The notes under the pieces were generated by a model. The model made no database searches and had not been told where the DNA came from. It saw only the letters and a list, made by a program, of their open reading frames with translations. Positions 1,223 to 26,629 of a stretch of DNA of 40,965 nt are shown piece by piece (the first letter of the stretch is position 1; each line of letters opens with the position of its first letter). Source of the DNA: Patescibacteria group bacterium (lineage in GTDB: Bacteria > Patescibacteriota > Minisyncoccia > UBA6257 > GWB1-50-10); the NCBI GenBank assembly GCA_030017555.1, contig JASEIC010000005.1:1-40965 (forward strand), read 5' to 3'. A program made the position numbers and the translations under genes.

Positions 1223-2479
1223 ATGAAAAAGAAATTTTTCTATTTTGATTTCGCATCAACGACTCCGATTGAAAAAAAGTACGTGTTCAATGCAATGAAA
1301 ACTTATTTTTCAGATGAATTTGGCAATTCATCTAGTTTATATTCGCTAGGCCGTCACGCAAAAATAGCTATCGAGAAATCTTTAGGACAAATCTCTGATG
1401 TTTTAAGATGCAAACAAGATGAATTTGTTTTTACCGGTAGCGCAACCGAAGCAGATAATCTTGCAATTGCTGGCGTGGCAATGGCAAATAAAGAAAAAGG
1501 GCATAAAATCATTGTTTCTAATATTGAACATAAAGGCATTCTTTCAATTTGTAGTGTATTAAAAAAACAAGGCTTTGAAATTTTAGAATTAAAAGTCAAA
1601 AAAAACGGGCTACTTAATCCGAAAGATTTGGAAAATTTAATTGATAATAAAACAATTTTAGTATCTTTGACTTATGTTGATTCAGAAACGGGCACAATTC
1701 AGCCGATAAAAGATTTAGTAGGAGTCGTAAAGCGTTTCCGAAAAGAAAAAAAATCAAATTTTCCTTATTTTCATACTGATGCAAGTCAAGCCGCGCTTTA
1801 TCTTGACGTAGCTGTGGATAACTTAGGTATTGACCTCATGACCATTTCTGCTCACAAAATGTATGGACCAAAAGGAATTGGTGGTTTGTATGTCAGGCGG
1901 GGCGTAAATATAAAACCAATAATATATGGCGGCGGTCAGCGGGGCAGTTTAAGATCGGGTACGGAAAATATTCCGGGCATTGTTGGTTTTGGTGAAGCAT
2001 TTTCTCTTGCAAGAAAAAATCAAAAAAAAGAAACAATACGAATTAAGAAACTTCGGGATAAATTAGAATACGGAATTTTTAAAAAAATTCCAAAAGTTAT
2101 TTTAAACGGTCATCCAACAAAACGTTTGCCTAATTTTTTGAATATTTCTATTTTAGATATTGAAGGGGAAGCCCTTTTGTTATATTTGGATAAACTTGGC
2201 ATTATGGTTAGTACTGGCTCGGCCTGCAATTCTCAAAACTTAGAACCTTCTTATATTTTAAGCGCGTTGAGGAGACCTTATGAATTTATTCACGGTAGTT
2301 TAAGATTTTCACTTGGTAAATGCAATGAAGATTTTCACATAAATTTCGTTTTAAAAAATCTACCAACGATTGTAAAAAAATTAAGAGCCATATCGCCGTT
2401 AAACCTTCCGCTTAACATAAACAAAAAAGTTTCAGAACCCAAAGCATTTATTGGCGGACAAACACCGCATTTTTTTTAA
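1223..2479 (+). CDS. Cysteine desulfurase (NifS/IscS family)
   Basis: PLP-lysine region SAHKMYGPKGIGGLY, active-site loop STGSACNSQ, SLRFSLG. Confidence 0.95.
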   Translation: MKKKFFYFDFASTTPIEKKYVFNAMKTYFSDEFGNSSSLYSLGRHAKIAIEKSLGQISDVLRCKQDEFVFTGSATEADNLAIAGVAMANKEKGHKIIVSNIEHKGILSICSVLKKQGFEILELKVKKNGLLNPKDLENLIDNKTILVSLTYVDSETGTIQPIKDLVGVVKRFRKEKKSNFPYFHTDASQAALYLDVAVDNLGIDLMTISAHKMYGPKGIGGLYVRRGVNIKPIIYGGGQRGSLRSGTENIPGIVGFGEAFSLARKNQKKETIRIKKLRDKLEYGIFKKIPKVILNGHPTKRLPNFLNISILDIEGEALLLYLDKLGIMVSTGSACNSQNLEPSYILSALRRPYEFIHGSLRFSLGKCNEDFHINFVLKNLPTIVKKLRAISPLNLPLNINKKVSEPKAFIGGQTPHFF

Positions 2480-2524: not shown

Positions 2525-3265
2525 ATGTCACAATTTTTAAAGCAACATAAAATTTCAATAAAAAATCCCAAGGTTGTACTATCGGGTATGCCGAAGATTA
2601 AAATAAAAAAAACAAAGCCCGATATTGTAAATAAATTTACCGGTGATAAGTGGGTTTATTCAAAAATAGTAAAATCTCATTTTTTTTATCCGAAGAATTT
2701 CTTGGTCGGCGATATAAAGAAATTAAATTTTGACGTCGAAGGAATCATCGGTTCACCGGCTTGCGGTGACGTGATGCGTGTGTGGCTTAAGATTGATCCA
2801 AAAACCGAAAAAATTAAAAAATTTAAATGGCGAACATTCGGTTGCGCGAGCGCCATTGCCGCGACTTCAATACTTTCGGTAATGGTAACGGAAAAAGGCG
2901 GTATGAAGATTGATAGAGCTTTAAAGATTAAACCCCAAGATATTATGAAGCGATTAGGCGGTTTGCCGGATAGAAAAATTCATTGCTCGGTTTTGGGCGA
3001 CAAAGCGCTTAGAATAGCGATAAATAACTGGTTTAAAAAAACCGAACAGTATGAAAGGATTATAATTGAAGGATCAAGAATTTTAGATCCCAATACTAAA
3101 GTTACCGAAGCTGACATTGAAGAAGCCGTACTTGAAGGCGCGACAACACTTGAAGCGGTTCAAAAAAGAACAAAAGTCGGCATCGGTTATTCAAAATGCA
3201 TCCTTGAAGTCGAAGAGCTTATCAAGTTTTATCGAGAAAAATATTATGGACCGGACAAAAAATAA
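2525..3265 (+). CDS. IscU/NifU-type Fe-S scaffold with N-terminal extension and degenerate BFD-like C-terminus
   Basis: SPACGDVM, FGCASA, IHCSVLG scaffold cysteines; C-terminal VTEADIEEAVLEGATTLEAVQKRTKVGIGYSKCILEVEELI resembles Fer2_BFD. Confidence 0.88.
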   Translation: MSQFLKQHKISIKNPKVVLSGMPKIKIKKTKPDIVNKFTGDKWVYSKIVKSHFFYPKNFLVGDIKKLNFDVEGIIGSPACGDVMRVWLKIDPKTEKIKKFKWRTFGCASAIAATSILSVMVTEKGGMKIDRALKIKPQDIMKRLGGLPDRKIHCSVLGDKALRIAINNWFKKTEQYERIIIEGSRILDPNTKVTEADIEEAVLEGATTLEAVQKRTKVGIGYSKCILEVEELIKFYREKYYGPDKK

Positions 3266-3476
3266 AATTAAAAAAATACTTGGAAAAATAAAACCATTTA
3301 TTCAAATGCACGGCGGTGATGTTGAATTAATTGAGATAAAAGGCGAAGAAGTAACCCTTAAAATATACGGCTCTTGCGTGAATTGTCCTTTAGCTGATTT
3401 AACCTATAATAAAATGATAGGGGGATTAATTAAAAAAGAAACGCCCCAAATTAAAAAGGTCATTATTATAAATTAA
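3246..3476 (+). CDS. NifU C-terminal (Nfu-type) domain protein, 76 aa
   Basis: IQMHGGDVELIEI...GSCVNCPLA (CxxC Nfu motif); start MDRTKNK at 3246 preferred over tracked start 3117. Confidence 0.85.
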   Translation: MDRTKNKIKKILGKIKPFIQMHGGDVELIEIKGEEVTLKIYGSCVNCPLADLTYNKMIGGLIKKETPQIKKVIIIN

Positions 3477-3480
3477 TTTT

Positions 3481-3741
3481 ATGGCGGATTTAAAAGAATA
3501 TAAACGAGATAAAATTGATTCAAAATTCGGAAAAATTGTGATTGATCGAGATTTGTGTATTGGCGCCGCGTCTTGCATTGCTGTTTCTGGCGTAACTTTT
3601 GAACTGGATAATGAAAATAAAGTAATTGTCATAGATTCCGAGAGCGTTGATGATGATATGCTTTTTGTTGCCGCTGAGTCGTGTCCCACGAAAGCAATTC
3701 TTCTTTTTGACAAATCTGGTAAACAAATATTTCCAAAATAA
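3481..3741 (+). CDS. Small 4Fe-4S ferredoxin
   Basis: DRDLCIGAASC...AAESCPTKAI ligand pattern. Confidence 0.85.
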   Translation: MADLKEYKRDKIDSKFGKIVIDRDLCIGAASCIAVSGVTFELDNENKVIVIDSESVDDDMLFVAAESCPTKAILLFDKSGKQIFPK

Positions 3742-3760
3742 AGAATAATTGGCGGCTTTT

Positions 3761-5005
3761 ATGGATAATTATAAATATCTCATTATTGGAGGTGGGGTAG
3801 CGGGTTCAACCGCGGCTGAAACCATCCGCTTAAAGGATTCTGTTGCTTCAATTGCAATAATAAACGATGAGCTTTATACGTTATATTCGCGAGTAATGCT
3901 TTCAAAGCCGAATTTTTTCTTAGGTCAAATTCCTTTTGACAGCGTTTGGTTGAAAAATAATGAATGGTATAAAAAAAATAATATTGTATTCTTGGGTGGA
4001 ATAACGGTTGTTAAATTGGATGCCAATAAAAAAACAGTAATACTTTCTGATAACCTAATTTTAGGATATGAGAAGTTGCTTATTGCCACCGGTGTTTGTA
4101 CGAGAAAATGGAATTTTCCCGGTTCTCAAAAAAAAGGAATTTACTATCTTAGAACGCTTGATGACGGTAGAGCAATAATGAATGCAATTAAAATCGCAAA
4201 ACGAGCTGTTACAATCGGCGGAGGATTTATTAGTTTCGAAATGGCTGATTTATTAAAAATGGCTGGTATTGATACGACAATGATTATTAGAGAGAACTAT
4301 TTTTGGGAACCAATGCTTGATGAAGATTCGGGCCGAATGGTTGAAAATGCTCTTAAAAAAAATGGTATTAAGATTATTTATAAATCTGAAGTAAAAGAAG
4401 TTATTGGCGAAACCAATGTTAAAGCGGTTATTTTGCAGGATAATACAAAAATCGAATGTGATATGATTATCTGCGGTATTGGCGCTTATTGTGATTTTGG
4501 CTGGCTTGCGGATTCCGGTTTGAAAACTAATCGCGGAATTTTAGCTGATGAATATTTAAAAACTAATTTGCCGGATGTGTGGACTGCTGGCGATGTTGCT
4601 GAATTTAACGATCTTATTCTTGACGAAACAATTCAAATAGGTAATTGGGTTAATGCTCGGGAACACGGCAGAATTGTCGCGTTAAACATGGTTGGTGAGC
4701 ATACGGCTTTTAAATTTGTTTCATTTTATACCACACAAGGTCTTGGAATTTCTATTGCTTTTATTGGTGATGTGCGACTTGATAAAAATCGTCTTGTTAT
4801 CAAACGCGGTTCACCGAATAAAAATTCTTATGGCCGGATTATTATTCTGGACAAAGGCGTACGCAAAGAAGTTGAGGGTGCGACTTTAATTAACAGGACA
4901 AGCGAAATGACTGCGATTGCCAAAATAATTGAAAAAAACATTGATGTTTTGAACAAATTAGATAAGCTTGGAGATGATAATTTTGATTTAAAATCAATAG
5001 CTTGA
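3761..5005 (+). CDS. FAD-dependent NAD(P)/ferredoxin (rubredoxin-type) oxidoreductase
   Basis: YLIIGGGVAGSTAAE Rossmann, TIGGGFISFE second Rossmann, VWTAGDVAE; MDNYKYL start preferred over tracked 3749. Confidence 0.88.
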   Translation: MDNYKYLIIGGGVAGSTAAETIRLKDSVASIAIINDELYTLYSRVMLSKPNFFLGQIPFDSVWLKNNEWYKKNNIVFLGGITVVKLDANKKTVILSDNLILGYEKLLIATGVCTRKWNFPGSQKKGIYYLRTLDDGRAIMNAIKIAKRAVTIGGGFISFEMADLLKMAGIDTTMIIRENYFWEPMLDEDSGRMVENALKKNGIKIIYKSEVKEVIGETNVKAVILQDNTKIECDMIICGIGAYCDFGWLADSGLKTNRGILADEYLKTNLPDVWTAGDVAEFNDLILDETIQIGNWVNAREHGRIVALNMVGEHTAFKFVSFYTTQGLGISIAFIGDVRLDKNRLVIKRGSPNKNSYGRIIILDKGVRKEVEGATLINRTSEMTAIAKIIEKNIDVLNKLDKLGDDNFDLKSIA

Positions 5006-5113: not shown

Positions 5114-6385
5114 ATGAATAAGTTTTTAAATAATAAATTAATTCCTCCTTGGTTTTTAATGGGCATAATTATTTTAATATTTGGATCGTTCGTCTTTATT
5201 GGATATGTGTATAAAAAAACAGAAAATATTCAATTTTCTGTTGAGGATCGTCAAACGAAAAAAGATCACATTATTCTCTTAAATTCTAACGTTACAACGT
5301 TAACAGATTTTGAGAAGAAATGCGAAAGTCAAAAAGGCAGATTTAACCTAGTGCAAGTAAGAGGACAAAATTATGCGGGGTGTGGTTATAATGGAGATGT
5401 TGGACAAAATAAACTTTGCTATTTTATAGATCAAAGCAGAAATATTCAGACAGAAAATGAATGTAATTTATGTAAATATAGTTTTAGTTGTGGTGAACCA
5501 AATTTTCCACAAAATATTCTGTTAGATAATTCACAAGAAAAGAAAACCGATATAAATCAATGTTGGTGCAATCACTATGAGCAACTGTATTTATTACCAA
5601 TTACTAGTTCTCAAGTTCGTATTTTCTTTGATAATATGATAGTTAGCACTTCTTCAGAGCAGTTTGGGATTAAAAGTTTAAAAGAGAACAAACCGAAAAA
5701 AATAAACGTTTCCTTGCAAGCAGAAAATGGTATCGTGAAAGCTGGAGAAAAATATACAATATCGTGGCAAGGATCAAATATACCTGATTATTCAACGATA
5801 GAATTGCACGAATGTACTGGCGAAGGTTGTAGTGGTATTGCAAGTGTTCCTTATAAACCACAACAGTATGTTTGGACCGTTCCTAAAACTGAATTTCCGA
5901 GAAGCCGCTATATATCATTATCGATAAAAGAGGGGACAGAATCAAAATATAGGGTTACAGCATCGGGTAGCTCAGCAGATCATTTTTTTGTTATTAACCC
6001 CGCCTTTCCTACAAAATTTCTTTACGATTCAGATAATATTTTTCCTCTTGCTAATAAAAACGAAACTTATAGGTTGGTTTGGAATTTGAACGCGAAAGAC
6101 GCACAAGAACCTGTTTATTTGCATATTGTAAAATGGATTGATTCAGGGAATAGTTTAGTTTCGCTTGACGCCATAAGAGTTAATTCCAATATAAATTTCC
6201 ATGATTTGATTATTTCTGAAAAATTTCAAGAAAGTACTCAATATATTGCCATTTTAACAAAGACCCCTTCTATATCAGGTAAAGCATGGGATGATAAATT
6301 AGTCGATGAAATTACCTCATATGATACTAGAGTAACATTTTGTGTTGAAAGTTGTCCTCCAGAAAGAGGTGTAGATTATAACTAA
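5114..6385 (+). CDS. Membrane-anchored Cys-rich surface protein with Ig-like TISW domain
   Basis: N-terminal TM segment; Cys-rich region; VKAGEKYTISWQGSNI motif. Confidence 0.65.
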   Translation: MNKFLNNKLIPPWFLMGIIILIFGSFVFIGYVYKKTENIQFSVEDRQTKKDHIILLNSNVTTLTDFEKKCESQKGRFNLVQVRGQNYAGCGYNGDVGQNKLCYFIDQSRNIQTENECNLCKYSFSCGEPNFPQNILLDNSQEKKTDINQCWCNHYEQLYLLPITSSQVRIFFDNMIVSTSSEQFGIKSLKENKPKKINVSLQAENGIVKAGEKYTISWQGSNIPDYSTIELHECTGEGCSGIASVPYKPQQYVWTVPKTEFPRSRYISLSIKEGTESKYRVTASGSSADHFFVINPAFPTKFLYDSDNIFPLANKNETYRLVWNLNAKDAQEPVYLHIVKWIDSGNSLVSLDAIRVNSNINFHDLIISEKFQESTQYIAILTKTPSISGKAWDDKLVDEITSYDTRVTFCVESCPPERGVDYN

Positions 6386-6666: not shown

Positions 6667-8700
6667 TCATTCAATCATAAACCGCGCGTCAACAATATGC
6701 GCATTTTTTTCATTTGCGATAACCGGATTTAAATCAATTTCTTTTATTTCAGAGCGGGTAAGCGCTAATTTGGATAATTTAATAATAATATCCGCGATTT
6801 TATTCAAGTTAACGGATTTTTCGTTACGCAAACCTTTCAAAATATTAAAACCTTTAATTTCTTGAATCATTTTTATGGCTTCTTTTTGATTAACTGGTGT
6901 GATTCTTATTGAGACGTCTTTTAATGCTTCTACAAATATGCCGCCCAGGCCGAATACAATGACCGGACCGAAAACAGAATCGCGTTTCATGCCAATAATT
7001 ACTTCTTTACCTTTTATCATCGGTTGAATTAACATGCCTTCGATTTTAGCCCTTAAATTATTTTTCTTAATTGATTTAAGTATTGAGTCCCAAGATTTTT
7101 CAGCTTCTTCCAGATTTTTTATATTTAATTTTATGCCGTGAACATCGGTTTTATGAATTATATTTTGGGAAATGATTTTCATTGCCAATAACTGCTCTTT
7201 TTTTGTTCTGAATAATTTGTTCAAATCCTTTTTCTTTTGGATTAACTGGCCTTCAAGGTTAAGACCAAAGCCATTTAGAATTTTTATTGTTTTGGTTAGT
7301 TTTATCATTTTCAACTTAGTTTCATCCGATTTTGTGGCGATAGGTTTCTTTGTTTTTAAAGATTCAATTCCGCCAAGCGCATCCAGCGATTCAATGGCAT
7401 CTTTAGGAAAGTCAAAATTAATTAAATTGTTTTCTTCAAAGACTTTTTGAGCTTCTTCCAGAGATTTACCGCCAATAAATACGGGAATAATTGGTTTTTG
7501 TTTGGCATAAGAAATAAGCATTTTTGCCGTTGTTTCGGCTTCAGTCATAAATTGAGGGGTAAGTATCACAATAATCCCATCAATATTTTTTTCTTTAACA
7601 AGTATTTTTAAGGCTTCTTCATAACGATTAACTAAAGCGTCGCCTAAAATATCTATTGGATTGTTAATTGCTGCGGCCGGCGGCAATATTTTTTTGAGTT
7701 TTTGCCGAGCTCTATTTGATATTTCAGAAAGTTCAAGTGATTTTGAAAGATCGATTAGGTCGGTTGCTACAACCGAAGGACCGCCGCCATTTGTTAAAAT
7801 CACTAACCGGCGCAATGGTTTTAATATGCCAATATGAAAAAGTTTTGCGAGATTAAAAAATGATCTTAACGAATCAACGGTTATTACTTTACTTTCTTTG
7901 CATACCGCTTCAAAAATAGAATCTTGAGGCGCGAGTGAGCCGGTATGCGACATTACTGCTTTTAGGCCTTTAGCGCTTCGACCGGCTTTTAATATAACAA
8001 TTGGTTTTTTTGCGGTTATTTTCTTTAAGTTTTTTATAAACTTTTCGCCATTGGTTATTTTTTCAAGATAAAGGAAAATTGCTTTTGTGCGAGGATCATT
8101 ACCTAAAAATTCAAGAAAATCCAATTCGGAAAGCATTGCTTCATTGCCTAAACTTATGAATTTTGAAAAACCAATTCCTTTATTATTAGCCCAATCAAGC
8201 GTCGCGCTGCCTAAAGCGCCCGATTGAGATAAAAATCCAATATGGCCCGAAAGCGGTTTACTTACGGCAAACGAGGCATTTAGATCGGACGAGGAATCAA
8301 TAATGCCCAAACAATTCGGGCCCAAAAGCGAAATTTTGTACTTTTTACAAATCTGTTTTAATTTTTCCTCAAGTTTTTTTCCATCTTCACCCGATTCCTT
8401 AAAACCGGAAGATATAACAATGGCATTAGATATTTTCTTTTTACCGCATTCTATAAGCGCCGACGGTACAAATTCTGCCCTTACAATAATAATCGCTAAA
8501 TCAATTTGGTCTTTTATATCCAAAACAGAATGATAACAATTTAAACCCAAAATTTCTTCGCGAGTAGGGTTTACCGGATAAATTTTACGGTTTTTCCCCC
8601 GAAGTAAATTAAAAAGAACAGCGTACCCGACTTTATTTTTTTCCGGTGTTGCGCCAATTATCGCAATTGATTCTGGATCAAAGAATTTATTTAGATTCAT
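6667..8700 (-). CDS. Acetate-CoA ligase (ADP-forming), fused alpha/beta
   Basis: CoA-binding start SIAIIGATPEKNKVGYAV, phospho-His motif MSHTGSLAP, C-terminal ATP-grasp. Confidence 0.93.
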   Translation of the reverse strand: MNLNKFFDPESIAIIGATPEKNKVGYAVLFNLLRGKNRKIYPVNPTREEILGLNCYHSVLDIKDQIDLAIIIVRAEFVPSALIECGKKKISNAIVISSGFKESGEDGKKLEEKLKQICKKYKISLLGPNCLGIIDSSSDLNASFAVSKPLSGHIGFLSQSGALGSATLDWANNKGIGFSKFISLGNEAMLSELDFLEFLGNDPRTKAIFLYLEKITNGEKFIKNLKKITAKKPIVILKAGRSAKGLKAVMSHTGSLAPQDSIFEAVCKESKVITVDSLRSFFNLAKLFHIGILKPLRRLVILTNGGGPSVVATDLIDLSKSLELSEISNRARQKLKKILPPAAAINNPIDILGDALVNRYEEALKILVKEKNIDGIIVILTPQFMTEAETTAKMLISYAKQKPIIPVFIGGKSLEEAQKVFEENNLINFDFPKDAIESLDALGGIESLKTKKPIATKSDETKLKMIKLTKTIKILNGFGLNLEGQLIQKKKDLNKLFRTKKEQLLAMKIISQNIIHKTDVHGIKLNIKNLEEAEKSWDSILKSIKKNNLRAKIEGMLIQPMIKGKEVIIGMKRDSVFGPVIVFGLGGIFVEALKDVSIRITPVNQKEAIKMIQEIKGFNILKGLRNEKSVNLNKIADIIIKLSKLALTRSEIKEIDLNPVIANEKNAHIVDARFMIE

Positions 8701-8819
8701 AAATAATATTCTTTATAGAGTTGTTCTTTACCCAGCAGTAGAAACTTGATATATTTTTGTTTTCGACTTATTTTTTTAATTATCATAGATAAAGCATATT
8801 CGTGGAACCAATTGAGTTT

Positions 8820-9596
8820 TCACTGCTGGGCTTCGAAAGTCGGTTTGGAAATTTCATAAAAAATACCGCAGGGAATCTTGTTTTGATTATTTTTTATTTT
8901 TTGCATTGCAATTTCAGGATCGTTTGCGGGCGAATCATCAATCCAAAAAATTCTTTCTTTAAAATATTCACGGGTATCAAAGAATGTGATGCATGGTTGG
9001 ATAATATCAACAAATGCAAATCCTTTATGTTCTGTGGCTCGTTTCATTATTTCTTTTGTTTTTGGAATATCCAAAGCAAATGTTCTTGCGATAAATGATG
9101 CGTTTAAACTAAGCATCAAGAGAATTGGATCAAACGGTTCGTCAATACTGCCAAATGGCGTTGATTTACCTTTAAAACCCTTAGGACTTGTCGGCGTTGC
9201 TTGGCCGGTAGTTAGGGCGAAAACCTGATTATTATGAACGAATAATTTAATATCAGAATTCCGACGCGCCGCATGAATTAAATGCTCCATACCTTCAGCG
9301 TAAGCATCGCCATCACCGGAAAAACCGATTACTGTTAAATTGGGGTTTGCGGTTTTTATGCCCGTCATCGTCGGGATTGATCGACCATGAAGGGAAGTAA
9401 AAGTATTCATATTTAGATATTCTACGATTTTCCCATGGCAGCCAATACCGGCTGTCGCAACAATATTTTCTATTTTTATTTTATTTTGAGATGTAAGTTC
9501 AGTAATTGCTTCTCTAAAAGCAACCAGTATTTGGAAGTTTGGACAGCCCGGACACCAAGTTATTTTTGCTTTTGTGTTTAAATCCTGATTTATCAT
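8820..9596 (-). CDS. 2-oxoacid:ferredoxin oxidoreductase, beta subunit
   Basis: WCPGCPNF, GIGCHG, TPP motif GFSGDGDAYAEGMEHLIHAARRN. Confidence 0.92.
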   Translation of the reverse strand: MINQDLNTKAKITWCPGCPNFQILVAFREAITELTSQNKIKIENIVATAGIGCHGKIVEYLNMNTFTSLHGRSIPTMTGIKTANPNLTVIGFSGDGDAYAEGMEHLIHAARRNSDIKLFVHNNQVFALTTGQATPTSPKGFKGKSTPFGSIDEPFDPILLMLSLNASFIARTFALDIPKTKEIMKRATEHKGFAFVDIIQPCITFFDTREYFKERIFWIDDSPANDPEIAMQKIKNNQNKIPCGIFYEISKPTFEAQQ

Positions 9597-11308
9597 TTTA
9601 AAAGCTTGTTTAATTCTTCGGCTAATTCTATTGGTTCAAACGGTCGAGAATCATATGCGAGAATTTTCTCATTGGCTTCAATGCCCGTTTTTTCCCGAAG
9701 AAGTCCGGTAAATTGTGCATTATGATTACTTTCAATTGAAATTATATTTTTTACTCCATTAAACGCCGCCGAAATTCTTTTAACATCGAAAGGTTCCATC
9801 CATAAAACCTGAATTAATTTAGCTTTTTTATTCAGATATTTATTTGCTTCCAAAACAACGGTTTTCGTTGAGCCCCAAAAAATAATTGCGTTTTTGCTTT
9901 TTTGATCGCCATAAACTTTAACTGTTTCGTATTTCTCGATTTCTTTTAAAATAGATTCTCCTTTTTTAAATCTTTTATTCTGCATTTTTTTAATAATATC
10001 TAAATCTTCCGTAGCAATGCCGTCTTCATCATGTTCGTAACTATTTGACTTAACTGAAGCATTGGGCGTTCCGGGAAAAACAATAGGGGAGACTCCACCT
10101 TCCGTAAATAAATAACGACTATAATGATTATCAATTTTCTCTAAGGGCTTGCCTCTCTCAATTTTTATGGAATCGGCATTAAGAATACCGGTGGTTAAAT
10201 TTTCCGACACGTGTTTATCTAAAAGTACAACAACCGGCAGTTGATATTGCCACGCAAGATTCAAGGCATAAGCTCCACATTGAAAGGCTTCTTCCGGATC
10301 TCCCGGCGCCATTACGATTCTTGGAAATTCACCGTGACCGGCGTGAAGCACAAATCTTAAATCAGTCTGACTTGAATGAGTGGGCACCCCAGTTGCCGGC
10401 CCTTGTCGTTGTGACACGGCAATAACAATCGGTATTTCAGAAATTCCGGCCAAACTAAATGCTTCTTGCATTAATGCAAAACCGCCGGTTGCGGTTCCTA
10501 TAGCGACGCGTTCGCCGGTATAAGCTATGCCTAAAGCCATATTAATAACCGCGATTTCGTTTTCGGGTTGAATAACTTTAATATTAAAATCTTTTTGCTT
10601 TTTTGCTAAAAAATGGAGAATAGAAGTAGATGGCGTCATTGGGTAAGCAATATAAAATTTGAGTCCCGCCGCGATAAGTCCTCGCGCTAATGCCGTATTG
10701 CCGTCTACAAGCTCCTTTGTATTAATTTTATCTCTTTTAATTTCTTTCCAGTGCCTGAAATTTATTTTCTCTAAATGTTCGTATCCTAATTTTGCAAGCG
10801 TAATATTCGATTCCAATGATTTTTCTTGAAATACTTTATGTAGAATATTTAACATTTCGTTTAAAGGTAAATCAAGAAGATAGCACATAGCGCCGAGGGC
10901 GGCTGATGAACGAGCAATGACGGGCGCTTTGGTATTTTTTATAAAATCAGAAAAAGGCAAATTTACCAAAGTGACATTTTGGCGTTCTATTTTTTCTTTT
11001 TCATAATTTTCCGTAAAAATAACCGCGTTTTTGCTTAATTTCGGTAAATGGCGCAAAACAGTTTCATCGGTTAAAGCAATTAATGCGTCAATGTGGGAAT
11101 TATCATAAAAAACTTTTTCATTGGAAAAACTTATCCGCGCATAATTATGGCCGCCGCGAATAAGCGACGGATATTTAAAAGAAATAAAAACTTCATAACC
11201 GATTTTAGCCAGGATTTGGCCAAGATTATTGCCGGCTTCGCGGATACCATCGCCAGCCGCGCCGCCAATAACTATAGTAAAAATACTGTTATGATTATGT
11301 TCGATCAT
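9593..11308 (-). CDS. 2-oxoacid:ferredoxin oxidoreductase, fused gamma-alpha subunit
   Basis: N-terminal GGAAGDGIREAG gamma domain; YPMTPSTSILHFLA, QPENEIAVINMALG; 4-nt overlap with beta gene. Confidence 0.93.
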   Translation of the reverse strand: MIEHNHNSIFTIVIGGAAGDGIREAGNNLGQILAKIGYEVFISFKYPSLIRGGHNYARISFSNEKVFYDNSHIDALIALTDETVLRHLPKLSKNAVIFTENYEKEKIERQNVTLVNLPFSDFIKNTKAPVIARSSAALGAMCYLLDLPLNEMLNILHKVFQEKSLESNITLAKLGYEHLEKINFRHWKEIKRDKINTKELVDGNTALARGLIAAGLKFYIAYPMTPSTSILHFLAKKQKDFNIKVIQPENEIAVINMALGIAYTGERVAIGTATGGFALMQEAFSLAGISEIPIVIAVSQRQGPATGVPTHSSQTDLRFVLHAGHGEFPRIVMAPGDPEEAFQCGAYALNLAWQYQLPVVVLLDKHVSENLTTGILNADSIKIERGKPLEKIDNHYSRYLFTEGGVSPIVFPGTPNASVKSNSYEHDEDGIATEDLDIIKKMQNKRFKKGESILKEIEKYETVKVYGDQKSKNAIIFWGSTKTVVLEANKYLNKKAKLIQVLWMEPFDVKRISAAFNGVKNIISIESNHNAQFTGLLREKTGIEANEKILAYDSRPFEPIELAEELNKLLK

Positions 11309-11394
11309 AAATTCAATTCTTCTAATTATAACATTTATTTTTAATAAGCACTCCCCGTATTTAAAAAGGTGTGTTATGATATATAAAAGTATTT

Positions 11395-11880
11395 ATGGCT
11401 GAAGATAAAAAAATAAAAATTGGATGGTTTTCTTTTTCGTGTTGCGAGGATAATACGATTGTGATGACCGAAGTAATGAACGATCACTGGCAGGAGTGGA
11501 AAAAAATCTTTGACTTCCGGCATATGCGCGTTTTAAAATCAAAAAATGTTCTGGATGAACTGGATATCGCTTTTATTGAAGGGGCGATTGCTTCGCCGGA
11601 ACATGAAGAAACTGTAAAAGATATTCGCGCGCGTTCCAAAAAACTTGTGGCAGTCGGTTCTTGCGCGGTAATTGGCTTGCCAGCCGGTCAGCGAAACACT
11701 TTTACTGAAGATCAGAAAAAAAGCATTGAATTTTTAATTACCCGTTTTGGCGCTCTGCCTAAAGTTTTAAAAGTCGTTGACGTAGTAAAAGTTGACGCTG
11801 AAATTCCGGGGTGCCCGATGAATCCGAATAATTTCTTAAAAGTTGTAGACGATTTAGTTCGGGAATTTCAACAAAAATAA
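11395..11880 (+). CDS. [NiFe]-hydrogenase small subunit (NuoB/HoxY-like, single cluster)
   Basis: FSFSCCEDNTIVMTE, FIEGAIASPEHEE, VAVGSCAVIG, PGCPMNP. Confidence 0.88.
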   Translation: MAEDKKIKIGWFSFSCCEDNTIVMTEVMNDHWQEWKKIFDFRHMRVLKSKNVLDELDIAFIEGAIASPEHEETVKDIRARSKKLVAVGSCAVIGLPAGQRNTFTEDQKKSIEFLITRFGALPKVLKVVDVVKVDAEIPGCPMNPNNFLKVVDDLVREFQQK

Positions 11881-11881
11881 A

Positions 11882-13177
11882 ATGCATACATTTGATTTAT
11901 CGCTTGAACATATAACAAAAATAGAAGGCAATGCCTCGCTTAACGTAAGTGTAAAAGACGATAAGGTAACAAACGTTAAATTTAAAACTGTTGAATACAA
12001 ACGTTTTTTTACTGAAGCAATGAAAGGCAAACCAATTGGCGCCATGCCCGCGCACCTAGCGCGCATTTGCGGCACTTGTTCTAATGCTCACATAATGTGC
12101 AGTATTGAAGCGTGTGAAAACGCGTTAGACATCGAACCGTCAGAACAAACAAAAATTTTAAGAACACTCACCATGCATGGACTTATAATCCGCGATCACG
12201 CGCTTCATTTATATTTATTCTCCTTACCTGATATTTATAACAAAGATTCATTTCTTGATTTAGATGAGAATAATAAAGAAGAGCACGATTTGTTGCATGA
12301 TGGTTTTGATATAAAAGCCGCTGGTAATTTTTTAGCGACTTTAATTGCCAGTCGAAGCGTTCATGCTACATATCCCACTATTGGCGGGTTTTTGCATTTT
12401 CCTGATAAAACAGGCATTGAAGAAGCAATTAAAAAGTTAAAGAATGTCAGAGAAGGAGTATTAAAACTGATTAAAATATTTTACGGGGCGCCATTTCATT
12501 TTGATCGAGAAACCAATTTTATGGCGCTTGTGCCGGAAAAAAGCTTTGGTTACATCAATGGTCAAATTTTGACAAGTAAAGGCGAAAAATATGGCGAGGA
12601 TAAATTCCGAGAACATTTAGAACAAGTAGTTTTGCCGTATTCGCAAGCATCGGCTTATCAATATAAAGGCGAAAGTTATATGGTTGGAGCATTGGCGCGG
12701 ATAAATCTCGCTAAAAATTTACTCCATTTAAAAACGAAAGAATCAATCGCGGAAATTCTTAAAGTTTTTCCTTCAACTGATATTTTCCATAATAATTTAG
12801 CTCAAGCAATTGAAATTCTCCATTCTATCGATGAATCAATAGAACTCCTCAAAAACAATGCGTTTGTGCCGGAACCGGTTATTAAAAAGCCGTTTCGCGA
12901 AGCAACCGGTATCGGCGTAATTGAAGCGCCGCGCGGCACTCTTTATCATAAATTGACAATTGATGAAAAAGGCATCGTAAAAGAAGGCGAAGTGATAGTA
13001 CCAACGGGTCAGAATCAAATAAATATTGAACAGGACATTGGCCGATTAGTTCAAAATCTCTTACCCGATACGTCAAAAGATAAAATTGTTTTTGAGATCG
13101 AGAAATTGATAAGAGCGTACGATCCTTGCATGAGTTGCGCCGCTCATTTCCTTAAAGTTTATTGGAACGAAGGATAA
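11882..13177 (+). CDS. [NiFe]-hydrogenase large subunit
   Basis: L1 motif RICGTCSNAH, C-terminal L2 motif YDPCMSCAAH followed by tail FLKVYWNEG. Confidence 0.93.
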   Translation: MHTFDLSLEHITKIEGNASLNVSVKDDKVTNVKFKTVEYKRFFTEAMKGKPIGAMPAHLARICGTCSNAHIMCSIEACENALDIEPSEQTKILRTLTMHGLIIRDHALHLYLFSLPDIYNKDSFLDLDENNKEEHDLLHDGFDIKAAGNFLATLIASRSVHATYPTIGGFLHFPDKTGIEEAIKKLKNVREGVLKLIKIFYGAPFHFDRETNFMALVPEKSFGYINGQILTSKGEKYGEDKFREHLEQVVLPYSQASAYQYKGESYMVGALARINLAKNLLHLKTKESIAEILKVFPSTDIFHNNLAQAIEILHSIDESIELLKNNAFVPEPVIKKPFREATGIGVIEAPRGTLYHKLTIDEKGIVKEGEVIVPTGQNQINIEQDIGRLVQNLLPDTSKDKIVFEIEKLIRAYDPCMSCAAHFLKVYWNEG

Positions 13178-13529
13178 TAGAGATTTCTTCAATGGCTTTT
13201 TTTTGAGAAATTATTGGCGGCACACAGATGATTTTTATTTTTTCAAGCCTACCCAACTTATTAAGAATTCGAAGTTCTGTTAAAGCGTCAAAATCATGAA
13301 GCGATACGCGCGGCGTTTTCGCAAAGTCATCTAAGGTGTTAAAAATTTTAACTTCGTTTATGCCCGTTGCCGTATCAATTACTGTTAATTCTTTCGGTAC
13401 GTTCCATTCTTCATTCGGGTCTTTTATCTCAAATTTAATATTTGGGAATAATTTTTTTAAATCCGGCAGGATTTTTATAGGCATTGAATCTTCTTTTATA
13501 TCGGGGTTGCCGAAAACAAATATCGTCAT
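13152..13529 (-). CDS. Hydrogenase maturation protease (HycI/HyaD-like)
   Basis: FVFGNPDIKEDSMP, TVIDTATG, SLHDFDAL, ICVPP; convergent to large subunit gene. Confidence 0.82.
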   Translation of the reverse strand: MTIFVFGNPDIKEDSMPIKILPDLKKLFPNIKFEIKDPNEEWNVPKELTVIDTATGINEVKIFNTLDDFAKTPRVSLHDFDALTELRILNKLGRLEKIKIICVPPIISQKKAIEEISIILRSNKL

Positions 13530-13530
13530 A

Positions 13531-14262
13531 TTAAATAGTTTTATTTGCGAGATTTAAACTTTGAAGCGTATATTTTTTTAATGTTTCGGCTTGGGGCAAT
13601 GAAATTATTTCACAAGGCACGTTCCAATGAATTGAAATAATATCGCCGGGTTTTATTTGTTCAATATCATATTCTGATTCCAATCGGCGCGTAAGTTTCT
13701 TTTTAATGGGTAATCCAAAGCATAATTTTCCGTTCGCGTAAATTATTGGTTCTGTTTCAACTGTAATTATAGGTCCATTTACTTCCAGTACTTTGCCGGA
13801 ACTAACAGAACATTCACTAAGGCTTTCTAAATCGTGCTCTAAATCGACATTACCGGTTCTGCGCCAAATATTTAAAACATGAAATGAATGGTGGGGAACC
13901 GCGCCTTGTTCCAATTTTTTTTCCATATATTTAAAATCTTTACTTCTTGTTTTCTTTTTTATTTGTTGACCGTAAATAAGGTGGCGATGGAAATGGCGTT
14001 TTTCAATATTTTGAAGCAAATCATTGCCTAACCAATATGCTTCAACAACTCGGCTATTAAAAGGATCCTGAATTTTATTTACCCGGGCAATAAATTCAAG
14101 GTACGGATACATTGTTTTAAATTGCGCAAGCAGCTGTTCTAAACCGACGTCAGTTACGCCTTCATCAATATAAGCTTTCACTTCGCGGTTAGCATCCGGT
14201 CCGCAATAATGAAGGCGGTTGGGTCCAAAAGCATATCGAGTACAACGTAAAACGCCGTCCAT
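13531..14262 (-). CDS. Hydrogenase-associated protein of unknown function with HypC-like C-terminus
   Basis: C-terminal CSVSSGKVLEVNGPIITVE...GDIISIHWNVPCEIISLPQAETLKKYT; adjacent to maturation protease. Confidence 0.6.
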   Translation of the reverse strand: MDGVLRCTRYAFGPNRLHYCGPDANREVKAYIDEGVTDVGLEQLLAQFKTMYPYLEFIARVNKIQDPFNSRVVEAYWLGNDLLQNIEKRHFHRHLIYGQQIKKKTRSKDFKYMEKKLEQGAVPHHSFHVLNIWRRTGNVDLEHDLESLSECSVSSGKVLEVNGPIITVETEPIIYANGKLCFGLPIKKKLTRRLESEYDIEQIKPGDIISIHWNVPCEIISLPQAETLKKYTLQSLNLANKTI

Positions 14263-14271
14263 AGATTAAAT

Positions 14272-15204
14272 TTAAATTGCCGATGATGAAATATTCGGCG
14301 CGGGCATCGGTGATTTTGAAGATTTCCGCGCGAATAAAACAAACAATATTATCCCCAAAACATAAAGAGCGGCGCTTATCGCGTCATTTAAACTAAAAAC
14401 TTTTGTTATAAAAATTGCCGAAAGAACATTAGTAACAAGCGTAGCAGGTACAAGCAGGGTAGCAACATAAGTGGCTGGCGCATATTTTAAAGCTCCATAC
14501 CAAAAACTGACAAAACCGAAAAGCAAAAAGCTCGTAAGAATCGTCCATCCCCACTGTGATTCATTTAAGTTCAAATTAAAAACTGCGGCGCCGTCTCTTG
14601 CTAGCAAAAACGCAAAAAGAATTAATGAACCCAAAATCATACGGTTTGCGGCAACAGTTGTGCTTGAAAATTCCTGCAATGCTTTTTTGGCAATAATGTT
14701 TTCAATTGCCCATAAAATAGTTGCGCCGATTATCATAAATTCTCCGGTATTAAATTTAAATCCGGTAAATCCGCCGATAAAAAAATTAGCGGCAAAAATT
14801 ATTGTTGCGCCGAGAATTTGTAATTTGGATAAACGTTCTTTCAAAAACGGATAAGCAAAAATAAAAACCCAAAGAAAGAGAGTTTTATGGATTAAGGAAG
14901 CGTTAATGGCGTTTGTTTGGGTTAAGCCGCTAAAGAACAGAGCAAAGGGCAATGAGCCGCCGACAACGCCGATTAAAATTAATTTAGTGATGTTTTTTTT
15001 TGAAGCGTTTTTTATTTCTGCCCATTTTTTCGTGATAAGAAAAATACCGAGGAGTAAAAACGCGACAATTGAATTTTTAAATGTGGTAAAGACAATCGGA
15101 TCTTTTACGGCTGTTACGGCGATTTTAGTTAGAAAATTGTTTGTACCGGAAATTAGCGCCGCTGAAAGCGCAAAAATCGTCGGGAATATTAATTTTTTAT
15201 TCAT
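14272..15204 (-). CDS. EamA/DMT-family transporter
   Basis: About 10 TM segments in two EamA repeats. Confidence 0.85.
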   Translation of the reverse strand: MNKKLIFPTIFALSAALISGTNNFLTKIAVTAVKDPIVFTTFKNSIVAFLLLGIFLITKKWAEIKNASKKNITKLILIGVVGGSLPFALFFSGLTQTNAINASLIHKTLFLWVFIFAYPFLKERLSKLQILGATIIFAANFFIGGFTGFKFNTGEFMIIGATILWAIENIIAKKALQEFSSTTVAANRMILGSLILFAFLLARDGAAVFNLNLNESQWGWTILTSFLLFGFVSFWYGALKYAPATYVATLLVPATLVTNVLSAIFITKVFSLNDAISAALYVLGIILFVLFARKSSKSPMPAPNISSSAI

Positions 15205-21443: not shown

Positions 21444-22670
21444 GTGGTTGACGTAAAATCAATAAAAACTTTGATTGAAGCTCAAGTTGCTAAACCAGCA
21501 AATGAGGTTTCGATTATAGAATTAGTCGATCTTATTGTCGAGTATGCTTATATTACTCGCGCTTCAGATATTCACATTGAACCCGCATCCGACAAGGTAA
21601 TAATTAGATTCAGAATTGATGGAATTTTACATGATGTTTTTTACTTAATTAAAGATCTCCAACCAGAAGTTATAAGCCGCATAAAAGTTTTATCAGGTTT
21701 AAAAACCGATATTCATCACATTCCGCAAGACGGCCGTTTTAAAGTTAAGCTTGAAGACGCGGATGAAGTTGATGTCCGTGTTTCAATTGCGCCGACTTTT
21801 TATGGTGAAAATACCGTGATGCGTATTCTTGCTGAAACAATCCAAGTTTTCAATTTGGAAGATTTGGGTTTTTCCCAAACTCAACTTATTCAAATGGCTA
21901 AAGCCATAAGAAAACCTTACGGCATGATTTTGGCTAATGGCCCGACTGGCTCCGGCAAAACAACAACTCTTTATACGGTTATAAAAAAATTAAACACGCG
22001 CGAGGTATCAATTATCACCATTGAAGATCCGATTGAATATTCCATTAGTGGCATTACTCAAATGCCGGTTAATGTCCAGTCTGGACTTTCGTTCGCTTCA
22101 GGCCTTCGCTCGATTTTAAGGCAAGATCCAAATATTATCATGGTTGGTGAAATTCGTGACACCGAAACTGCCAATATTGCTATTAACGCGGCTTTAACCG
22201 GTCACTTAATGCTTTCAACACTTCATACTAATGATGCCGCAACAACTTTCCCGCGGCTTATTGACATGGGCGTACCGCCGTTTCTTGTTGCTTCAACATT
22301 AAATATTATTATTGCCCAGAGATTAGTTCGTAAAGTTTGTCAGAACTGCCGCGAAGAACGCATCCTTAATCTTGCCGAACTTAAAAGTTTAAGCAGTATT
22401 GCTAAAGAACAACTTACCGACAAAATTTATACTGTCGGTAAAGGTTGCGTAAAATGCGAAAATACCGGTTATCATGGCCGTCTCGGTATTTATGAAGTAC
22501 TTGAAATCGATGATAATATCCGGTCGCTTATTGTCGGGCACGCTGATGCGACGCAAATAAAGCAAGTTGCCGTAAAAGGCGGTATGAAAACAATGATTGA
22601 AGATGGTTTTACAAAAGCTCGCAAAGGAATCACTACAATTGAAGAAGTGCTCCGCATAATTTATGAATAA
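21444..22670 (+). CDS. pilB: Type IV pilus assembly ATPase (PilB/GspE), short N-terminus
   Basis: Walker A NGPTGSGKTTTLY, IRDTETANIAINAALTGHLMLSTLHTND, GTG start. Confidence 0.93.
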   Translation: MVDVKSIKTLIEAQVAKPANEVSIIELVDLIVEYAYITRASDIHIEPASDKVIIRFRIDGILHDVFYLIKDLQPEVISRIKVLSGLKTDIHHIPQDGRFKVKLEDADEVDVRVSIAPTFYGENTVMRILAETIQVFNLEDLGFSQTQLIQMAKAIRKPYGMILANGPTGSGKTTTLYTVIKKLNTREVSIITIEDPIEYSISGITQMPVNVQSGLSFASGLRSILRQDPNIIMVGEIRDTETANIAINAALTGHLMLSTLHTNDAATTFPRLIDMGVPPFLVASTLNIIIAQRLVRKVCQNCREERILNLAELKSLSSIAKEQLTDKIYTVGKGCVKCENTGYHGRLGIYEVLEIDDNIRSLIVGHADATQIKQVAVKGGMKTMIEDGFTKARKGITTIEEVLRIIYE

Positions 22671-23754
22671 ACCCCCTTCTTGGGTAAAAATACTGCCAAA
22701 AATCCTATATTCAGTTTCTCTCCAGGAGAAAATAAATTTTGCGCGCAATTTATCGGTTGGCATCAAAAGCGGATTAGCAATCATTGAAAGTTTACGGCTT
22801 ATTCAAACGCAAACACCGTCAAAACGTTTTAAAAAGGTAATTGACGAAGTAATAAAAGATGTGAACAATGGCCAGTCTTTAGCTCAAAGTTTGGAAAATT
22901 TTTCTTATATCTTCGGAGATTTTTTCATCAGTATGGTGCGAGTGGGGGAAACGAGCGGCAGTCTTTCGCCAAGTCTTCTTTATGTTTCGCAAGAATTAAA
23001 AAAACAACGTGAAATAAATCACCGCGTAAAATCTGCGCTTATGTACCCGATTGTTATTTTGATTTTTACTTTATTTGTTACGATTTTTTTAACGTTTTTT
23101 ATATTTCCGAAAATTTTGCCGATTTTTTCAAGTTTAAGAGTAGAACTTCCGCTCGTAACAAAAATTATGATCAACGCTTTAACTTTTATGAGCAAATACG
23201 GGCTTTATCTTTTGGGCGCCTTAGTTTTACTCGTAATTGCTTTAAAAACGTTGCTGACTGTAAAAAAAGTTCGTTATATTTTTGACAAATTAACTCTTTC
23301 GTTGCCGCTTGTCTCAAAAATAGTTATTAATCTCACGCTTACTAATTTTACCCGTTCGCTCAATGTCCTTTTAAAAAGCGGTATGACATTGGTAGACGCG
23401 CTTTTAATCGCTAAAAATACTTTTCATAATCTTTATTACCGTAAAAAAATTGATGAACTTTTAGATTTTATCAGGCGCGGCGAAGAAATGGCTCAATATC
23501 TAATAACTCAACCGAAATTTTTTCCGGCGATGTTTACGGGCATGATCCAGGTCGGCGAACGTACCGGCAACTTGGAAGAAAATTTGATTTATCTTTCGGA
23601 GTATTATGAAAGTGAAGTTGATGATGTCGTTAAAAACCTAACAACTATTTTAGAGCCATTACTTTTAATTTTAATGGGTCTAATTGTTGGTTTTGTCGCT
23701 GTTTCAATAATCACGCCGATTTACAAAATCACTGAAGGGTTGAATGTAAGATAG
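22663..23754 (+). CDS. pilC: Type IV pilus inner-membrane platform protein PilC/GspF
   Basis: Two T2SSF domains; GVKSGLAIIESL, MVRVGETSGSL, GMIQVGERTGNLEENL. Confidence 0.93.
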   Translation: MNKPPSWVKILPKILYSVSLQEKINFARNLSVGIKSGLAIIESLRLIQTQTPSKRFKKVIDEVIKDVNNGQSLAQSLENFSYIFGDFFISMVRVGETSGSLSPSLLYVSQELKKQREINHRVKSALMYPIVILIFTLFVTIFLTFFIFPKILPIFSSLRVELPLVTKIMINALTFMSKYGLYLLGALVLLVIALKTLLTVKKVRYIFDKLTLSLPLVSKIVINLTLTNFTRSLNVLLKSGMTLVDALLIAKNTFHNLYYRKKIDELLDFIRRGEEMAQYLITQPKFFPAMFTGMIQVGERTGNLEENLIYLSEYYESEVDDVVKNLTTILEPLLLILMGLIVGFVAVSIITPIYKITEGLNVR

Positions 23755-23767
23755 TTTCAATAATTAT

Positions 23768-24217
23768 ATGAAATCTTTCAAAAAAGGACGGAACAAGGGT
23801 TTTACTTTAATTGAAGTAATGATAGTTTTTGCCATTATTGCTCTTATTGCTTTGATCGGCATTTCTTTAGGCATTGATAACTATCGCTATTATCTATTAA
23901 CAACCGAGATTAAAAATTTTATAAGCATAATGCGAAGCGCGAAATGGGCGGCATTGAGCAATAATTATAAGCAGAGTTATGGATTATCTTTGCAGTTGGA
24001 TAAATTCGTTATTTTTCAAGGCTCGACTTATGCGACCCGAAACACAATTTTTGACGAAGTTTATCCGCGTAATCAGTCAATCAACGTTACCGGACCGTCG
24101 GAGGTAGTTTTTTCGCCACTGTCAGCAACCCCTAACGCGACCGGAACTTTTGTTTTTAGTAATAGCATTGTTTCTAGAATGATAACCATAAATAGTCATG
24201 GCGCAATTTTCTGGTAA
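23768..24217 (+). CDS. Prepilin-type minor pilin (GspH/FimT-like)
   Basis: KGFTLIEVMIVFAIIALIALIG. Confidence 0.88.
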   Translation: MKSFKKGRNKGFTLIEVMIVFAIIALIALIGISLGIDNYRYYLLTTEIKNFISIMRSAKWAALSNNYKQSYGLSLQLDKFVIFQGSTYATRNTIFDEVYPRNQSINVTGPSEVVFSPLSATPNATGTFVFSNSIVSRMITINSHGAIFW

Positions 24218-24219
24218 TT

Positions 24220-25674
24220 ATGACGAAGAACAATTTTAAAATAAAAAAACAAGGCCAAAGCTTAATTGAAGTTCTTATTGCTCTCACGCTTATTACTTTG
24301 GCTATTGGATTTTCTGCAATTTTGGTTTTCGGCGGCCAAAAACTTTTAGTGGATAGAATCAATTCAACGCAAGCCAGGATAATCGCTAAAGAAGGCGTTG
24401 AGGCCGCTTCTCTTATTTTAAAAAGCAGTTGGAATAGCGTGGTTGACGGTAATTATGGTCTTTTAATTTCATCAAACGGCGTTTGGCAATTTAACGGTTC
24501 AGAAGACCAAAAAGGCATTTACACTCGTAAGATAACCATTGCCACTCTCGATAGCAACACCAAAGAAATAAAAAGCAGTGTAAATTGGATAACGGATCCT
24601 AATCGTCCACTTAAGGTGGAATTGATAACACTCGCTACTAACTGGCCCGATATTGCTTCAACCGGAGGCGATACTGGCGGTGGAGGTTTAACCGGAGATT
24701 GGAAAAATCCCAAAACATTAGGGACATTTCAAACAGTGCCTTCCGGAAATTCCGGAACCGATCTTGATGTAATGAACAAAATTGTCTATCTCACCACAAA
24801 ACACAGTGCTTCTGACAAGCATGATTTTTGGGTTATTAATGCAGTAAATCCAGCAAGCCCTTTTTTTCTTGGGTCGCTTGATGTGGGAAGTGCGGGGCTT
24901 TTAAGCATTGACGTTGTTCAGAACTATGCTTATGTGGGGAATAATTCAACTAATGCGCAGTTTCTTGTTATTAACATATCAAATCCGTCAAATCCTTTTA
25001 TAATCACTTCTTTTACTTTACCGGGCGTTTCCGGCAGTGGCGCTATCGGGCAAAGTATTTTTTATTATGCCGGCAGAATATACATGGGAACAAAACAAGC
25101 CAGCGGACCGGAGTTTTTTATTATTGACGTGTCTAATCCATTATCGCCTGTTGTTTTGGGGAGTAAAGAAATAAATGCCGATGTAAATTCTATTACCGTA
25201 AGCAATAATCTTGCGTATTTGGCTACTTCCGACGATTCAAAAGAATTGGTGGTTCTTGATTCTTCAAATCCGTCCAGTATCGGCGAGCTCGGTTATTTCA
25301 ACGCGCCCGGTGGTGGAGACGGACGAAGCGTTTTCCTGTCTGGAAGCAAACTTTATCTCGGTCGTTTGAGCAGTGGTAATCCGGAGTTATATATTTTAAA
25401 TATTACAAATCCCGGAAGTATTCAATCGCTGGGCACGGTCACTCTCGGCTACGCTTTAAATGATTTAGCTGTGCGTGACTATTTGGCTTTTTTGGGAACT
25501 TCTGATACAAATCTTGAATTTCAAATAAAGAATATTTCCAATCCGGCTAATGTTACGCAGTGGAGTGATTTTAATTTCTCGCAAGAAGCGGTTGGCGTTG
25601 ATTACGAAGATAATCTTGTTTATGTTGCGGTGAGAGCAAATGACGCTTTAAGAATAATTACCTCCACGCCTTAA
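24220..25674 (+). CDS. Prepilin with C-terminal LVIVD-type beta-propeller
   Basis: GQSLIEVLIALTLITLAIG prepilin start; Gly-rich linker GGDTGGGG; repeated FLVINISNPSNP / FFIIDVSNPLSP / LVVLDSSNPSS / LYILNITNPGS. Confidence 0.85.
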   Translation: MTKNNFKIKKQGQSLIEVLIALTLITLAIGFSAILVFGGQKLLVDRINSTQARIIAKEGVEAASLILKSSWNSVVDGNYGLLISSNGVWQFNGSEDQKGIYTRKITIATLDSNTKEIKSSVNWITDPNRPLKVELITLATNWPDIASTGGDTGGGGLTGDWKNPKTLGTFQTVPSGNSGTDLDVMNKIVYLTTKHSASDKHDFWVINAVNPASPFFLGSLDVGSAGLLSIDVVQNYAYVGNNSTNAQFLVINISNPSNPFIITSFTLPGVSGSGAIGQSIFYYAGRIYMGTKQASGPEFFIIDVSNPLSPVVLGSKEINADVNSITVSNNLAYLATSDDSKELVVLDSSNPSSIGELGYFNAPGGGDGRSVFLSGSKLYLGRLSSGNPELYILNITNPGSIQSLGTVTLGYALNDLAVRDYLAFLGTSDTNLEFQIKNISNPANVTQWSDFNFSQEAVGVDYEDNLVYVAVRANDALRIITSTP

Positions 25675-25675
25675 A

Positions 25676-26164
25676 ATGAAATTTTCTAAAAACGGCTTGA
25701 CCTTAATTGAAGTTTTAATTTACTCGGCTTTGCTCGCGATTTTTTTGATTGGTTCGTTTTTATTTATTAACAGCATTCTTTCGGTTGATAAAGCATCCGA
25801 AGAACAAAACGAGGCGCTGGCTAACCAGGATTTTGTTGAAGCAAAACTAAATTGGCTGCTGGGCCAAACAACAAACATAAATACTCCACCCGCTAATGCT
25901 TCTTCAACTGAATTAAAACTGGATGGTTCTACAATTGGCATATTTCCGGCTGTTTTTTCTTTAGCCAACAATGCCATTAACCTTTCGTTAAACAACGGAT
26001 CAGTAATCCCGGTTACAAATGACCGCGTAAAAGTAACGACTTTTGCAATAGAACATTTTTCAAACAATCAATCATTTTCATCAATTAGAATCACGCTTGC
26101 TTTAGAAAGCAATATTTCGCCGAATATAAAAACAAGCAGTACGATTTTCTATGTTATTAAATAA
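25676..26164 (+). CDS. Prepilin-type minor pilin (PulJ-like)
   Basis: KNGLTLIEVLIYSALLAIFLIG. Confidence 0.85.
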   Translation: MKFSKNGLTLIEVLIYSALLAIFLIGSFLFINSILSVDKASEEQNEALANQDFVEAKLNWLLGQTTNINTPPANASSTELKLDGSTIGIFPAVFSLANNAINLSLNNGSVIPVTNDRVKVTTFAIEHFSNNQSFSSIRITLALESNISPNIKTSSTIFYVIK

Positions 26165-26540: not shown

Positions 26541-26570
26541 CTTGTGGATAATTTTATATTTTTTTGTGCT

Positions 26571-26576
26571 ATAATT
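26571..26576 (+). promoter_or_regulatory. -10 box TATAAT upstream of major pilin gene
   Basis: gtgcTATAATtataag within the 90-nt intergenic gap. Confidence 0.45.
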
Positions 26577-26629
26577 ATAAGTATTCAAGGTCGAGAGCAT
26601 ACAAAAATAAAAAGCATAGCTAATTTTTT

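Follow-up and report, generated by a model that had tools for sequence, protein, structure and literature searches.

A hyd2 [NiFe] Hydrogenase with a Putative HypDEF-Independent Maturation Cassette in Patescibacteria

The Hydrogenase Locus

We analyzed a 40,965-nucleotide stretch from a Patescibacteria group bacterium (assembly GCA_030017555.1, contig JASEIC010000005.1, positions 1 to 40,965; hereafter the window), which encodes a compact [NiFe] hydrogenase beside enzymes of 2-oxoacid fermentation. HypD, HypE, and HypF (HypDEF) are considered the pathway by which [NiFe] hydrogenases acquire their Fe(CN)2CO unit. Our findings lean toward a model in which a hydrogenase of the hyd2 type carries out ferredoxin-linked H2 evolution and matures independently of HypDEF.

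The hydrogenase genes lie on the forward strand. The small subunit (11395..11880; PF01058) is truncated to 161 amino acids and, judging from the alignment, keeps no cluster but the proximal one, where a CCED motif replaces CxxC; the large subunit (11882..13177; PF00374) falls in the hyd2 clade and carries a tail, FLKVYWNEG, after DPCMSCAAH. On the reverse strand follow a predicted maturation protease of HybD/HycI fold (13152..13529), a DUF6390 protein composed of a helical N-domain and a C-terminal HypC domain (13531..14262; PF19927, 8.6e-55), and an EamA-family permease (14272..15204; PF00892, 2.6e-36), a conserved hyd2 neighbor present in single copy in the genome. Divergently oriented across a short intergenic region (11309-11394), and also on the reverse strand, are KorA, a 2-oxoacid:acceptor oxidoreductase alpha subunit with a fused gamma domain (9593..11308; TIGR03710, 560 bits), KorB, the 2-oxoacid:ferredoxin oxidoreductase beta subunit (8820..9596; TIGR02177, 278 bits), both above subfamily cut-off, and an ADP-forming acyl-CoA synthetase (ACS) with alpha and beta parts in a single chain (6667..8700; PF13380, PF13607, PF13549). 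The alpha-gamma fusion plus a thiamine pyrophosphate-dependent beta subunit is the architecture expected of a 2-oxoacid:ferredoxin oxidoreductase, as which KorAB is predicted to act; the NCBIfam matches of the ACS-like protein to 4-hydroxybutyrate and acetate-CoA ligases (542 and 523 bits) do not reach equivalog cut-offs. Family profiles thus bear out the open reading frames and functions that an initial annotation had assigned to ACS, KorAB, and the two-subunit hydrogenase. Both of its "maturation factors", now the protease and DUF6390, hold as such, the divergent intergenic region is real, and the same gene order recurs in the sister species and in other families. Its module was drawn too narrowly, since the cluster extends to EamA and includes an upstream ferredoxin and a flavin adenine dinucleotide (FAD) reductase that had been missed.

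Enzyme Identity and Constraint

Named genomes (candidate phyla radiation, CPR, and two DPANN archaea) yielded 19 relatives. Large-subunit homologs also occur in 57 of the 380 genomes of our phylum sample, where their scores split clearly into two sets. The high-scoring sequences form one clade of 40 rows with 100/100 support; the phylogeny called for by the initial annotation thus places the enzyme in the hyd2 clade. Locus counts below are over these 40 hyd2 loci, of which 37 are distinct (duplicates L064=G037, L076=G128, L079=G198, and L080=G358). The best NCBIfam matches of the large subunit are ShyA/HydA and the best Protein Data Bank chain is 5yxy (E=1.4e-61). From shared traits, on which the clade identity rests, the enzyme is of the hyd2 type, a 3b-related [NiFe] hydrogenase that is already known (Jaffe et al. 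2020, PMC7304191). The window fits every trait stated there for hyd2: a small subunit of about 164 amino acids, no beta or gamma subunit, and a PF07992 protein (our flavoprotein fits the description of fam013) and a HypC-related family nearby. Absent from that account are the lack of HypDEF (the word "maturation" appears nowhere in its text), the HypC domain of DUF6390, the module of EamA and protease, the linkage to Kor and ACS, and the altered cluster ligands. The group 3b sulfhydrogenases I and II of Thermococcales (5yxy, 9nez) have large subunits homologous along their whole length (E of about 1e-61), but they are tetramers that include NAD(P) and Fe-S subunits as well as a full-length small subunit, whereas the window encodes two subunits; residue 105 of the large subunit is Asp in hyd2 and Ser in these enzymes. 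No gene for either the Fe-S (beta) or the NAD(P) (gamma) subunit of group 3b was found in the cluster, the nearby ferredoxin and PF07992 protein being of different families. Two DPANN archaeal genomes (L081, L082) also carry hyd2 with DUF6390 and EamA, which suggests transfer of the module between CPR and DPANN.

The active site appears strictly maintained. The four nickel-binding cysteines of the RxCGxC and DPCxxC motifs (C63, C66, C416, C419) are invariant at 40/40 hyd2 loci, as are E15, R61, D105, P350, R351, T375, and D414. Against the sister species, the large subunit gives a dN/dS of 0.055/1.32 (ratio of about 0.04), DUF6390 one of 0.108/1.04, and the protease one of 0.111/0.787. Beyond DPCxxC, large subunits of hyd2 have retained a short tail, and the protease is retained with it; in nearly all those of hyd1 the terminal His is the last residue and no comparable protease lies nearby. 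The protease itself matches no family, and its match to the HycI sequence profile is not significant; its assignment to HybD/HycI comes from structure (model pLDDT 89.5; Foldseek match 1cfz, E=3.8e-6) and is accompanied by an invariant GN and by invariant D14, D52, and H78, which correspond to the metal-binding acid, Asp, and His of HybD/HycI. In the small subunit, the CxxC of the proximal cluster is changed in hyd2 to C-[C/S]-E-D-[S/N]-T in the alignment, with the other two cysteines kept. In part of one subclade Ser takes the place of the second cysteine, and in this subclade Asn replaces the terminal His of the large subunit. Tandem cysteines are reminiscent of cluster N2 in complex I. Three Lloydbacteria-type loci have a NicO nickel permease close to hyd2.

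Absence of HypDEF

No HypA-F gene was found in the whole genome of the window (contigs totaling 674,215 bases, 99% complete) with tblastn of Escherichia coli Hyp proteins, family hidden Markov models (HMMs), or an HMM of CPR HypC. A weak HypF match in this genome is TsaD-like by sequence and was discarded. Compared with canonical HypABCDEF maturation, a HypC-type domain (in DUF6390) and a HybD/HycI-type protease are retained, whereas HypA, B, D, E, and F are missing. HypD is likewise absent from all 42 family genomes and from all of 20 hyd2 genomes found independently (0/20), and neither HypE nor HypF occurs in any of the 41 distinct hyd2 genomes; the single-contig hyd2 genomes G206, G227, and G249 (0.88-1.10 Mb) also lack HypDEF. 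Weak HypE matches in some genomes (<30 bits) were rejected, being far under the cut-off of a model that also scores in HypD-less controls. Across the phylum sample HypD is matched in 14/380 genomes, and HypD, HypE, and HypF are concentrated in one shared set of 11 hyd1 genomes (G075, G099, G101, G117, G119, G133, G176, G177, G203, G273, and G341). In some of these the genes are partial, lying at the ends of contigs, and two (G117, G177) have no HypE match. In G119, G177, G203, and the hyd2 genome G325, contigs break within hypD, each time at roughly matching positions (residues 65-81). Truncated HypA-like reading frames, covering model positions 1 to about 70 without the Zn domain, immediately follow the hyd1 large subunit or lie in its vicinity (L208, 3195-3449; G081, G082, G118, G121, G160, G175, G189, and G075).

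The initial annotation had taken the absence of hyp genes from a complete genome as grounds against its proposal, and that absence is what we find in this 99% complete genome. We do not take it as proof of a dead enzyme, because it is common to essentially all hyd2 genomes, in which purifying selection still acts on DUF6390, on the protease, and on the active site and cleavable tail of the large subunit. With genes considered indispensable missing from this genome and from nearly all relatives that have the same enzyme, another way of building the hydrogenase metal center therefore probably exists. Among the open-licence papers searched, we found none on HypDEF absence in CPR or on DUF6390, and neither independence from HypDEF nor the cassette appears to have been reported in them.

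DUF6390, HypC, and EamA

DUF6390 tracks the hydrogenase closely. It is present in 32/380 genomes, 31 of the 57 with a hydrogenase versus 1 of the 323 without (Fisher p=1e-28), and none of these 31 hydrogenase genomes carries HypE or HypF (Fisher p=4e-5). Its last 94 residues align to HypC (hhalign E=6.6e-7, probability 85%), with invariant C150 and H211 at the positions of HypC Cys2 and His51, and HypC is the top Foldseek match of its C-terminal half (2z1c, probability 1.00), yet with E=0.012. In canonical maturation, Fe(CN)2CO is held by Cys2 of HypC and Cys41 of HypD, and Cys2-loaded HypC has been proposed as its deliverer (PMC11565642, PMC6886295). Homology of the DUF6390 N-domain to HypD found no support (hhalign probability 0.2%); its invariant C19 and H124 could be candidates for the HypD side. 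Among stand-alone HypC proteins, His51 is kept in 14/14 that occur with HypDEF and in 0/14 of the hyd2 cases. EamA adjoins hyd2 at 31/40 loci and HypDEF-bearing hyd1 at 0/10, and is also found at two hyd1 loci with neither HypDEF nor DUF6390.

Cassette Swapping in hyd1

Within one hyd1 family, large subunits 88-93% identical adjoin HypC-D-E-F in G133, G176, and G273 (HypF of the latter being on a separate contig), DUF6390-EamA-HypC in G233, and HydG plus a HypC-HydE fusion in G244. Because near-identical large subunits adjoin such different cassettes, the swap suggests that these do the same job. The HydG and HydE assignments score 560 bits (cut-off 312) and 296 bits (cut-off 255), respectively. 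The HypC-HydE fusion occurs in six hyd1 genomes without HypDEF: G244 (L213, 6779-9432), G189 (L236, 2636-5378), G083 (L237, 3560-4834), G190 (L130, 2836-4146), G193 (L238, 9067-10437), and G292 (L239, 8493-9917). HydG adjoins it in two of the six. [FeFe] maturases apparently serve a [NiFe] enzyme in these genomes. No HydA motif was found in the fetched loci, to which that search was confined. The fusion is a feature of the six hyd1 genomes, whereas HydG is absent from all hyd2 genomes searched; in the genome of the window, a genome search found no HydG and tblastn neither HydE nor HydG, and this route was rejected for it.

Link to Fermentation and Electron Carriers

KorA lies near hyd2 at 14/40 loci and ACS at 13/40, in unrelated families, so the link between fermentation and H2 is supported by recurrent synteny, beyond adjacency in the window. 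Upstream, on the forward strand, are a single-cluster ferredoxin (3481..3741; PF13459/PF13370 above cut-off; family HMM E=2.1e-33), the proposed electron partner, and a ferredoxin reductase-like FAD/NAD(P) pyridine-nucleotide-disulphide oxidoreductase (3749..5005; PF07992, 8.9e-53; best NCBIfam matches PadH and AndAa, under their cut-offs). With an HMM built from four relatives, the ferredoxin family is present at 20/40 hyd2 loci, and this protein is the only such match in its genome; a PF07992 flavoprotein is near hyd2 at 15/40. The initial annotation had noted that no ferredoxin adjoins the hydrogenase, which is so for direct adjacency, but both carriers lie within the same cluster. Likewise, its minimal ferredoxin-linked unit stands as two subunits recurrently tied to 2-oxoacid oxidation and ADP-forming ACS; since ferredoxin and FAD reductase are co-conserved, the hydrogenase is less isolated than proposed. 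Further upstream on the same strand are a NifS-like cysteine desulfurase (1223..2479; PF00266, 1.1e-64), which adjoins hyd2 at a minority of loci, a protein with a NifU N-domain and a BFD-like [2Fe-2S] domain (2525..3265; PF01592, PF04324), and a Nfu/NifU C-terminal domain protein (3246..3476; PF01106, 7.7e-20). The reading frame between flavoprotein and ACS (5114-6385, 423 amino acids) has no Pfam family above cut-off, and elsewhere in the window (21444-27091) lies a cluster resembling those for type IV pili or type II secretion, which encodes pilin-like proteins and a protein with LVIVD repeats.

Model and Alternative Explanations

From gene content and conservation, we infer which way electrons flow and what DUF6390 and EamA do. 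KorAB would oxidize 2-oxoacids to acyl-CoA and reduce the cluster-encoded ferredoxin, whose electrons the hydrogenase would pass to protons through its single proximal cluster, releasing H2; ADP-forming ACS would convert acyl-CoA to acid and ATP, and the ferredoxin reductase-like flavoprotein may connect and balance the ferredoxin pool with NAD(P)H. The active site would be built without HypD, HypE, and HypF: DUF6390, with the iron-binding Cys and conserved His of its HypC domain, would assume the scaffold or carrier role, a ligand or some precursor may be provided by the EamA permease, and the C-terminal tail of the large subunit would be cut off by the HybD-like protease. More tentatively, Patescibacteria may possess at least two replacements for HypDEF, a DUF6390 (HypC-domain) and EamA cassette in hyd2, including the window, and a HypC-HydE fusion, alone or together with HydG, in some hyd1, such that the NiFe(CN)2CO site is made or acquired by an undescribed route. 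Outside CPR, DUF6390 is located within complete hyp operons of Sulfobacillus and Mycobacterium plasmids (L192, L193), so it probably belongs to maturation in general rather than having arisen in CPR.

Several points weigh against this interpretation. The same plasmid operons mean that outside CPR DUF6390 may be a mere accessory, and the Fisher p-values given for it ignore shared ancestry. EamA is not near hyd2 at 9/40 loci and DUF6390 at 8/40, some of them on short contigs. G325 combines hyd2 with HypC-HypD fragments, the sole hyd2 genome of 41 with pieces of HypD, and the case for swapping rests on G233 (90% complete) and G244 (86% complete). Finally, we know of no CO- or CN-making enzyme in the cassette.

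Of the competing explanations, the one that survives best, though it is unlikely, is that the hyd2 metal site lacks CO and CN ligands (e.g. Ni or Fe alone) and that the protein is a redox protein or another enzyme, HypDEF having been lost as unneeded. The systematic absence of HypDEF, the altered ligands of the proximal cluster, and the HypC proteins without His51 in hyd2 would all fit; yet every ligand and second-shell residue expected around Fe(CN)2CO is invariant, P350, R351, and T375 included, near-identical hyd1 large subunits are found both with and without HypDEF, and protease, tail, and DUF6390 are retained. We hold it slightly less probable still that the cells take up Fe(CN)2CO, or the ligands for it, from a host or neighbor, with EamA as importer and DUF6390 or HypC as receiver. 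CPR bacteria rely on others for building blocks, and the distribution of EamA, frequent beside hyd2 and at two HypDEF-less hyd1 loci but not beside HypDEF-bearing hyd1, agrees with import; on the other hand, EamA substrates are diverse and unpredictable from sequence, EamA is missing nearby at the nine loci above, and we know of no Fe(CN)2CO species that is free and transportable. That HypDEF is present but was missed through binning loss, an unassembled element, or excess divergence is very improbable: assemblies are fragmented and four contigs break inside hypD, but the three single-contig hyd2 genomes lack HypDEF, and the models that match no HypE or HypF in hyd2 genomes detect HypDEF in 11 CPR hyd1 genomes. 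Equally improbable is a non-functional remnant of a laterally acquired hydrogenase, to which the truncated small subunit and absent beta and gamma subunits might point, given the low dN/dS of the large subunit, the matched protease and tail, and the conservation of the module over many CPR families and two DPANN archaea.

If HypDEF-independent maturation holds true, a large clade with a conserved active site but without HypDEF would overturn the HypDEF rule, DUF6390 would gain a function, and a compact system would become available for producing hydrogenases or engineering them. The cluster also sharpens the view of electron disposal as H2 by reduced, probably dependent bacteria.

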